From Mesotoga sp. Brook.08.105.5.1 (GTDB lineage Bacteria; Thermotogota; Thermotogae; Petrotogales; Kosmotogaceae): 64,000 bases of DNA. Of this stretch, positions 1,586-59,895 are shown one piece after another. The stretch covers positions 1 through 64,000 of the forward strand of contig NZ_AYTW01000036.1 of the NCBI RefSeq assembly GCF_002752635.1. The letters are read 5' to 3'. Every line of letters starts with the position of its first letter. Position 1 is the stretch's first letter. Below the pieces are notes generated by a model that saw only the letters and a program-made list of their open reading frames with translations, did not search any database and was not told the origin of the DNA. The position numbers and the translations under genes were made by a program.

Positions 1586-2398
1586 CTAGCCTTTGACAGA
1601 GCCCGCAAGAAGTCCTCTCAGGAAGTATTTACCAAGCAGTACATAGACAACCAGCGTTGGTAGAGCAGCCAGCAGCGCTCCAGCCATCTGAACATTCCAT
1701 TCAACAACCTGACTCCCGGCAAGATTGACCAAAGCGACTGTAATTGGCTGCTTTGTGGGATCACTCGTTACAGTTACCGCGAAGAGAAACTCGTTCCAGA
1801 TATTAGTGAACTGCCAGATCACAACTACTACGAAGCCGGGTAGAGAAATTGGAAAGAGAACTTTCAGGTAGGTCCTGAATATACCGGCGCCATCTATTCC
1901 AGCCGCTTCAATTAGCTCCGTAGGTACTTCACTGTAGTAATTGCGGAAGATCAAAGTTGTTATTGGCAATCCATAAACTACATGGACCAAAATCAATCCC
2001 CAAAGTGAGCCGTAAAGACCTATGTCTTGCAGGAAACGAATAAGAGGGAAGAGGACACTCTGGTAAGGAATAAACATCCCGAAGAGAACTAGAGCGAAAA
2101 GCAAATCGGAACCTCTGAATTTCAGTTTCGATAAAACGTAACCGTTAATAGAGCCAATTATGGCTGATAAGAGCGTTGCAGGAATCACCAAAATGAATGA
2201 ATTCCTCAGGTTAGGAGCGAGACGGTTGAAAGCCTTTGCGAAGCCATCAAGAGAGGGTTCCTTAGGCAGGAACCACATTTTCTCCAGGCCGACTTCTCTG
2301 AGAGGTTTGAGACTTGTCGCCAGAAGGACATAGATTGGCATCAGAAAGAACAATGCAAATACAACCAGAAGAATGTAAGTGACGATTTTCTTGATCAT
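1586..2398 (-). CDS. sugar ABC transporter permease, MalG type
   Basis: Inner-membrane permease of a carbohydrate uptake ABC transporter (MalG/CUT1 class), 270 aa. About six hydrophobic segments are visible. The cytoplasmic coupling loop has the family signature EAAGIDGAG near residues 165-175, where the ATPase docks. The protein ends in the MalG-like LLAGSVKG. The start ATG overlaps the stop of the upstream permease by 4 bases (ATGA), so the two are translationally coupled, and GGAGAAGAGGGT serves as ribosome site. It is the last gene of a leftward operon (binding protein, MalF-like, MalG-like). No ATPase gene is present, so a shared MsmK/MalK-type ATPase encoded elsewhere probably powers it. 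The substrate is unknown; the divergent GH4 gene suggests an oligosaccharide. Confidence 0.92.
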
Positions 2399-58672: not shown

Positions 58673-58747
<75 letters not shown>

Positions 58748-58774: not shown

Positions 58775-59713
58775 TTATATCCAGCTCTGCCCTGGAACTT
58801 TCGGGAATAGCCTGGTTTTCAGGACGTTGTCAAGAGAGCATACATATCTGGCAAGTCTTTCGACTCCAATTCCACAACCCGCTGTTGGAATGAGTTCTCT
58901 CATTTCTGCTATCTCCATGTACCAGGCAAGTTCTTCGGGGTCAGTACCTTTGAATTCCATTCTGTTAATAATCCTTGGGTGTTCCCACTCTCTCTCTCCA
59001 CCAGACAAGGTCTCTCCGAATCCTTTTGGAAGAATCAAGTCCATGTCTTTGAGTGTCTTTCCATCATCAGACAGGAGGTCGTAGAACTCCCTCTCCCAAA
59101 TTGGGAAGTCTATCAACCAGAAGGGTTCAGTGAAGCTGGAGGACAGAACGGTTTCGAAGTCTTTTCCATACTGTTCGTAAGCATCCATGAACTTCACTTT
59201 TGCGAATGGTCGGGAGGGTACTAAAGGGTCTGAAGACAGATACTCCAGTTCCCTTCTACAGCTCTCTTTAATTGTTGTAATTACGCTGGCCAGCAGATCT
59301 TCAACAAGTAACATCACGTCATCTCTGGACGCGTTCTTGATTTCCAGATCGATCTGACTGAATTCGAAAAGATGTTTTCCCGACAGCGCCTTCTCAGAAG
59401 TCTCTAGTCTCACGTTAGGAGATACTATGAAAATCCTGTCAAATGACTTGCATGCCAACTGCTTGTGGAAAATCATAGACTGCGTTAGACGATACTCCTG
59501 ATCGTAATAATGAAACTTCGCGTTATGAACTTCATGGTTCAGTGGATCGGTTATCGGAGATACAACGGTGGGAAGAAGTTCCACAAAGCCTTTTCCCCGA
59601 AGGAAGTTGTTTGCTTCTCCCAGCAGTGCGGACTTAACTCTAACTGCCGATTTTACTAGTGGGTCGCTCAGGTGTTCCAGTATCCTTGTGCTTAGTCTCC
59701 CTGTGCTTTCCAT
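58775..59713 (-). CDS. archaeal-type asparagine synthetase (AS-AR), AsnRS-core paralog
   Basis: A class II tRNA synthetase catalytic core without the N-terminal anticodon-binding domain, 312 aa. LLPTVVSPITDPLNHEV, YRLTQSMIFHKQL (motif 2 region), IFIVSPNVRLE, LFEFSQIDLEI, LILPKGFGETLSGGEREWEH and TAGCGIGVERLARYV (motif 3) match my memory of the Pyrococcus abyssi enzyme that makes asparagine from aspartate, ATP and ammonia, itself derived from AsnRS. The lack of the OB-fold argues against tRNA charging. ATG 59713 has GGGGTGAGAG just upstream; a start at 59755 would fall inside the terminator hairpin. It is preceded by an Asn-rich leader peptide and attenuator and lies beside tRNA-Asn. Free-standing catalysis is inferred. 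Confidence 0.85.
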   Translation of the reverse strand: MESTGRLSTRILEHLSDPLVKSAVRVKSALLGEANNFLRGKGFVELLPTVVSPITDPLNHEVHNAKFHYYDQEYRLTQSMIFHKQLACKSFDRIFIVSPNVRLETSEKALSGKHLFEFSQIDLEIKNASRDDVMLLVEDLLASVITTIKESCRRELEYLSSDPLVPSRPFAKVKFMDAYEQYGKDFETVLSSSFTEPFWLIDFPIWEREFYDLLSDDGKTLKDMDLILPKGFGETLSGGEREWEHPRIINRMEFKGTDPEELAWYMEIAEMRELIPTAGCGIGVERLARYVCSLDNVLKTRLFPKVPGQSWI

Positions 59714-59728
59714 TCTCTCACCCCTTAT

Positions 59729-59762
59729 AAAAAAAGAAGGCCGATGGTTATCCATCGGCCTT
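59729..59762 (-). terminator. attenuator terminator before the asparagine synthetase-like gene
   Basis: Minus-strand AAGGCCGATGG, ATAA, CCATCGGCCTT: a perfect 11-bp stem followed by C and seven T (59735-59729). It ends 15 bases before the synthetase ATG at 59713 and 30 bases after the leader-peptide stop. Its 5' arm (GGCCGAT, 59760-59754) can instead pair with ATCGGTC of the leader (59805-59799). Confidence 0.92.
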
Positions 59763-59792
59763 TTAATCTTCTAAAAGCTACAAAAGCAAAGA

Positions 59793-59864
59793 TTAACTGA
59801 CCGATCCCGGCCAGGAATTATTATCGACTACTCTATTCCCATATAAAGACTCATTATGAACCAT
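59793..59864 (-). CDS. Asn-rich 23-aa leader peptide (attenuation)
   Basis: A 23-codon frame with AGGAGG (59877-59872) 7 bases before ATG 59864. Four residues are Asn, all AAT: codons 4, 10 and the adjacent codons 15 and 16, within VVDNNSWPGS near the end. Directly after the tandem Asn codons the RNA can fold TGGCCG (59813-59808) with CGGTCA (59803-59798), and the latter overlaps the strand that competes with the terminator. That is the classical order of a leader-peptide attenuator: control codons, 1:2 hairpin, 2:3 antiterminator, 3:4 terminator. The peptide's only likely role is to report Asn-tRNA supply. A second in-frame ATG at 59870 is too close to the ribosome site. Confidence 0.85.
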   Translation of the reverse strand: MVHNESLYGNRVVDNNSWPGSVS

Positions 59865-59886
59865 AATCATTCCTCCTGATTGTTTG

Positions 59887-59895
59887 ATTGTACCA
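59887..59895 (-). promoter_or_regulatory. promoter of the asparagine leader-synthetase unit
   Basis: Minus-strand TGGTACAAT, an extended -10; at 17-base spacing the -35 would be the weak TTTTCG. The predicted transcript start near 59880 places the ribosome site almost at the 5' end. Confidence 0.75.

Follow-up and report, generated by a model that had tools for sequence, protein, structure and literature searches.

A putative asparagine-sensing, trp-type attenuator ahead of an AS-AR-type asparagine synthetase gene in Mesotoga and other Thermotogota

It is very likely that the AS-AR-type asparagine synthetase gene of Mesotoga sp. Brook.08.105.5.1 is controlled by a ribosome-mediated transcription attenuator of the trp type, with charged tRNA-Asn as its signal. 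The leader concerned lies on the minus strand of the 64,000-nucleotide stretch analysed here (positions 1 to 64,000 of contig NZ_AYTW01000036.1; hereafter the window), where an initial annotation had proposed the logic of the trp attenuator applied to asparagine, a proposal that comparison with related Thermotogota supports. Two tandem Asn codons in a single open reading frame (ORF) would be unconvincing alone, and we regard the comparative evidence as decisive for this prediction; it establishes the parts of the putative attenuator, their order and spacing, the mutual exclusion of its predicted helices, and their conservation. The mechanism, trp-type attenuation, is already known, while the amino acid, the genes, and the lineage appear to be new. 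The promoter, the AGGAGG motif, and the 23-codon ORF with its four Asn codons match base for base the positions first proposed for them, and segments 1 to 4 and the U-run also lie where they had been placed. The elements of the leader and its surroundings are as follows.

59887-59895 (-): extended -10 promoter element TGGTACAAT, read from the sequence; the -35 element is weak
59872-59877 (-): Shine-Dalgarno sequence AGGAGG of the leader ORF, 7 nt 5' of the ATG at 59864
59793-59864 (-): leader peptide ORF MVHNESLYGNRVVDNNSWPGSVS, 23 codons, with stop codon TAA at 59795-59793
59817-59822 (-): tandem Asn codons AAT AAT, the proposed sensor (2-9 tandem Asn codons in relatives)
59808-59814 (-): segment 1, CTGGCCG, 5' arm of the protector hairpin; the equivalent helix shows compensatory changes in family f5 and Caldisericum
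59797-59805 (-): segment 2, ATCGGTCAG, able to pair with segment 1 (via CGGTCAG) or with segment 3 (via ATCGGTC)
59789-59796 (-): 5' strand of the second antiterminator helix, TTAATCTT; TTGGGT, CCTTTG or TGTCTTT with matching partners in relatives
59763-59770 (-): 3' strand of the second antiterminator helix, AAGATTAA
59752-59762 (-): segment 3, 5' arm of the terminator, AAGGCCGATGG, whose GGCCGAT can also pair with segment 2
59737-59747 (-): segment 4, 3' arm of the terminator, CCATCGGCCTT
59729-59735 (-): U-run of the intrinsic terminator, seven U
58775-59713 (-): AS-AR-type asparagine synthetase, 312 aa, the controlled gene (NF005054, 361 bits against a cut-off of 309; PDB 3p8t, E 6e-56)
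58673-58747 (+): tRNA-Asn(GUU), convergent with the AS-AR gene; neighbourhood kept only in the genus

The Asn codons of the leader ORF are at 59855-59853, 59837-59835, 59822-59820, and 59819-59817. A 25-codon version of the frame, starting from an ATG at 59870, is also present but lacks the Shine-Dalgarno spacing. The short translatable ORF with its Shine-Dalgarno sequence stands between the promoter and the structural gene, and the intrinsic terminator stands 5' of that gene. The promoter element, as TGGTAnAAT, occupies an unchanged position in members of the genus and family (TGGTAAAAT, TGGTAGAAT, TGGTATAAT). All three proposed pairings hold, although each is longer than was first described. 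Helix 1:2, given as 6 bp, is in fact 7 bp: CTGGCCG (59814-59808) pairs with CGGTCAG (59803-59797), and a GGAU tetraloop closes the hairpin. The antiterminator 2:3 contains the ATCGGTC/GGCCGAT helix (7 bp) already noted, followed by a 2x2 internal loop and a further 8-bp helix, TTAATCTT/AAGATTAA (59796-59789 with 59770-59763), which had been overlooked and makes up half of the structure. The terminator stem 3:4 was recognised, but its arms extend to 11 bp (59762-59752 with 59747-59737). In the window the antiterminator (about -19.6 kcal/mol) and the terminator hairpin (-19.3 kcal/mol) have similar predicted energies.

From this arrangement we infer ribosome stalling, a choice between RNA structures in vivo, and a response to asparagine along the following lines. 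When Asn-tRNA is plentiful, the ribosome would reach the leader stop codon at the end of segment 2; because the finishing ribosome covers segment 2, the 3:4 terminator would form and the gene would be off. When Asn-tRNA is scarce, the ribosome would stall on the tandem Asn codons immediately 5' of segment 1 and prevent 1:2 from forming, segment 2 would pair with segment 3 by way of the stacked 7-bp and 8-bp helices, and with the terminator excluded the gene would be transcribed. A short run may suffice for this; in E. coli trp, two tandem Trp codons are enough. The scheme was modelled by taking out the nucleotides under a stalled ribosome and calculating how probable the antiterminator is while segment 4 has yet to be transcribed. 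A ribosome positioned on the Asn codons gave a predicted probability of at least 0.75 in 49 of 50 leaders, and one positioned on the stop codon gave a value below 0.5 in 43 of the 50. The values for the window were 0.99 and 0.16, respectively. Ribosome-free RNA at equilibrium gave mixed results, with 2:3 often favoured over 1:2, so the off state without translation would depend on folding kinetics, that is, on 1:2 forming cotranscriptionally. Family f2 builds the 5' arm of its protector out of the Asn codons (in L041, for instance, AACAATACACAGCG pairs with CGCTGAGTGTTGTT), and a ribosome stalled on them would thus take the protector away directly.

The assignment of the controlled gene (58775-59713) as an asparagine synthetase of the AS-AR type, as in the initial annotation, is strongly supported by family membership: its product, which would make asparagine from aspartate and ammonia, scores above the curated cut-off of NF005054 ('asparagine synthetase A'), and among solved structures the best sequence match is an archaeal asparagine synthetase A, 3p8t. 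The product is class II aminoacyl-tRNA synthetase-like (PF00152), with a catalytic core near that of AsnRS and no N-terminal anticodon-binding domain; the extra N-terminal part is present in the 443-aa AsnRS encoded separately in the same genome (NF003037, 549 bits against a cut-off of 414). Since a true AsnRS is present, Asn-tRNA could be charged from free asparagine, and charging could report asparagine supply. A caveat is that 59 of 61 related genomes also encode GatB, so some Asn-tRNA might arise without free asparagine. True AsnB is rare in relatives possessing AS-AR, and three family f10 genomes without AS-AR each have AsnB; in the genome of the window a single AsnB-like protein is borderline, reaching 271 bits against a cut-off of 267 once its pieces are joined. 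The tRNA-Asn gene to which the initial annotation drew attention is real, but its neighbourhood is genus-only and its orientation convergent. It is probably irrelevant and was dropped as a component of the system.

Protein matches were found in 59 of 61 related genomes, many of them AsnRS or LysRS paralogues; the comparison set consisted of 45 Thermotogota loci that are AS-AR orthologues or pieces thereof. The sequence-based checks that the initial annotation proposed all favoured it: a leader ORF with tandem Asn codons precedes AS-AR at 45/45 loci, in runs of 2 to 9, and segments forming 1:2, 2:3, and 3:4 are kept ahead of all 45. The run is shortest in the phylum in the window and its closest relatives (two codons), reaches 3-4 in other members of the genus and 5-6 in one other genus of the family, and is as long as 9 elsewhere. 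Runs of at least three occur in 39 of 47 Thermotogota leaders versus 0/38 archaeal orthologues (Fisher p 1.3e-16), a natural negative control in which no Asn run exceeded 2. No other amino acid has comparable runs in the same 400-nt upstream regions. Both codons are used (AAT:AAC = 184:61), so it is the amino acid that is kept, not the DNA, and apart from Asn the leader peptide is not conserved. One locus (L033) was considered as an orthologue without a leader, which was ruled out when an Asn7 leader was found 664 nt upstream, on the far side of an insertion; there the intact leader and its terminator are set apart from AS-AR by about 540 nt of repeat-like sequence.

The order of elements is constant in 50 terminator-type leaders: Asn run, segment 1, segment 2 with the stop codon, spacer, segment 3, segment 4, U-run. 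In all 50 modelled leaders the stop codon lies 6-33 nt (median 24) past the Asn run and the terminator arm begins 40-61 nt past it. Covariation, counted on alignments of concatenated arms with the variable spacer omitted, was found for two of the three mutually exclusive helices, the protector 1:2 and the terminator 3:4; the initial annotation had looked to covariation in all the segments, and for 2:3 it is weak. In an alignment of family f5 and one Caldisericum (A4), 98% of the cells of helix 1:2 are paired, with 5 doubly changed cells against 1.1 expected (score 0.333 versus 0.226); none of 500 shuffles scored as high, and slid registers were at most 60% paired. Across 11 distinct sequence types the terminator is 100% paired, with 5 double changes against 1.2 expected and 1/500 shuffles as high. 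For the first part of helix 2:3, the same 11 types are 96% paired with 3 double changes against 1.3 (32/500 shuffles as high), and within family f5 no covariation of 2:3 was seen. In the second 2:3 helix, read by eye and uncounted, the sequence is family-specific and the pairing is retained (TTAATCTT/AAGATTAA, CCTTTG/CAAAGG, TTGGGT/ACCCAA, TGTCTTT/AAAGACA, TTTGGGTA/TACCCAAA). The folding energy of 2:3 was better than that of dinucleotide shuffles (p<=0.05) in 36 of 50 leaders. In the window by itself, about 99% of dinucleotide shuffles gave a weaker 2:3 fold (z about -4, p 0.01), and helix 1:2 was moderately significant (p 0.025). This energy test was used in place of a shuffle test by number of base pairs with segment 3, which was uninformative because G+C-rich arms pair with anything.

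These comparisons bear on three other readings of the leader. An incidental Asn-containing ORF ahead of a plain intrinsic terminator, giving constant partial termination and no Asn regulation, would suit the window by itself, with its four Asn codons, just two of them adjacent, and the modest significance of its 1:2 helix. Such a reading is nevertheless very improbable: Asn runs occur at every one of the related loci and at none of the archaeal ones, their spacing to the stop codon and terminator is fixed, and a plain terminator has no need of 1:2, yet that helix shows compensatory changes. Still less probable is arrest by the nascent peptide itself, in the manner of tnaC or erm, in which the Asn-rich peptide would stall the ribosome upon some ligand. 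Recurrent peptide ends within families, such as WPGSVS or GPGSVG, might hint at this, but they coincide with the RNA segments that they encode (TGGCCGGGATCGGTC); between families only Asn is kept in the peptide, and the run length varies from 2 to 9.

Some class II aminoacyl-tRNA synthetases autoregulate, and the AS-AR protein, as a relative of this class and an AsnRS paralogue, might bind its own leader RNA and repress itself. This we consider the least probable of the three, since autoregulation would not require Asn codons, no tRNA-Asn-like fold was seen, AS-AR lacks the additional N-terminal portion of AsnRS, and the same leader is also found ahead of glnA.

Attenuation by charged tRNA-Asn would place the leader close to the E. 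coli trp operon and other leader-peptide attenuators, with which it shares an ORF carrying tandem codons of the product amino acid; as in the E. coli trp attenuator, three mutually exclusive helices are combined with an intrinsic terminator, and the stop codon is sited so that a finishing ribosome would permit termination. It differs from the trp-type attenuators known in sensing asparagine, in controlling AS-AR (and glnA elsewhere), in its Thermotogota host, in its two stacked antiterminator helices, and, in family f2, in the use of Asn codons as the protector arm. T-box regulation of Asn genes in Firmicutes also reads the charging of tRNA-Asn. A T-box, unlike the leader in the window, binds tRNA directly through RNA and has no leader peptide, and no Rfam T-box match was found in the window at the gathering threshold or at E<=1; tRNA alone reached the gathering threshold there, and sub-threshold matches at E<=1 were chance-like. 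No Rfam family was found for an Asn leader. The amino acid attenuators in Rfam are those for His, Leu, Thr, and Trp; attenuators for Ile/Val and Phe have been described outside it, and a gamma-proteobacterial origin has been suggested for attenuators of this kind (PMC3766115). A screen of 26 genomes that included Thermotogae does not contain the word 'asparagine' in its main text; its nearest case, uORFC-8-2, is likewise a leader identified by computation, with a tandem pair of codons and the layout of ribosome-mediated attenuation, but the codons are for Cys, the gene is the aminoacyl-tRNA synthetase gene cysS, and the hosts are alpha-proteobacteria (Rhodobacterales) (PMC8632094). In line with the novelty claimed by the initial annotation, no earlier report of an Asn-specific leader-peptide attenuator was found in the full-text literature searched, which included few subscription journals. 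Asparagine would be added to the few amino acids for which sensing through leader-peptide attenuation is known, and such attenuation would be the usual means of controlling AS-AR in a phylum that branches deeply and is often thermophilic.

A covariance model of the leader was searched in the genome of the window and in its relatives. The genome of the window has one copy, with no second attenuator at the model threshold. Three relatives have a further copy upstream of a type I glutamine synthetase gene, glnA by TIGR00653 (L209, ...FANNNNNPIDTGRLG; L210, ...NAANNNWPGSACSMP; L211, MNNNNNNNPIGTGRLG), and in four other genomes (G013, G031, G033, G043) AS-AR is followed directly by glnA on the same strand, so that a single leader could serve both. 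Among the 30 glnA genes with the best scores, no upstream region contained more than two Asn codons in a row. Coupling to glnA points to Asn-tRNA charging as a possible signal of amide-nitrogen status.

Further leaders were noted in relatives. In L214 a match to the model (2173-2267, minus strand) precedes hisZ-hisG and combines a terminator with a run of four His codons (MNNRIFSTLKWHHHHSNIYK...); it is a predicted His attenuator within the same phylum, and as such favours the attenuation reading for AS-AR. At L212:613-694, a similar RNA layout with an aromatic-rich peptide (NFYEKYFVMNMYWYIF) precedes a branched-chain-type ABC transporter. At L208:589-683, an Asn5 leader with a terminator is followed after about 200 nt by an ORF of 589 aa that matches nothing in NCBIfam; AS-AR in that genome (G012) has a different, family f2-like leader, and the Asn5 leader was perhaps left behind upon gene replacement.

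Outside Thermotogota, Caldisericota relatives have the same leader architecture. A tree of AS-AR places leader-bearing bacterial genes against archaeal genes and a leaderless Caldisericota group, with a weak deepest fork; one acidobacterial-group gene with a leader (L132) falls on the archaeal side on a long branch. The Caldisericum AS-AR genes that carry a leader (L064, L066, L186, L187, L189) group with Mesoaciditogaceae, as do their leaders, pointing to a joint transfer of gene and leader between phyla. In Aminicenantia (L085, L089, L108, L109, L119, L129-L131, L144, L146, L148-L153), a GTCCCC..GGGGAC hairpin comes straight after the Asn codons, the stop codon falling within its loop or close by, and there is no U-run terminator. 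Sequestration of the Shine-Dalgarno sequence is unsupported there (just 3/16 leaders at p<=0.05); the output is perhaps Rho-dependent or translational.

Bipolaricaulota leaders have the form AAYGCCCC..GGGGC. In one clade (L106, L175, L177-L179, L181-L184; leaders ending ANTNAPLGA or ANNAPxGA), a segment 5' of the Asn codons (CCCCTTGGG) pairs with the AS-AR Shine-Dalgarno sequence (CCCAAGGGG), at p<=0.05 against shuffles in 7 of 9 leaders tested, and here the Asn-codon leader probably acts translationally. This variant, and not the leader of the window, resembles erm-type translational attenuation, from which it differs in its trigger, which would be a shortage of Asn and not an antibiotic. The chances seem about even that Asn-codon leaders have accompanied bacterial AS-AR since ancient times in four or more phyla, with an amide-nitrogen regulon (AS-AR and glnA) in Thermotogota and a translational, Shine-Dalgarno-sequestering version in part of Bipolaricaulota; if so, one codon-based sensor would have been coupled to different outputs.
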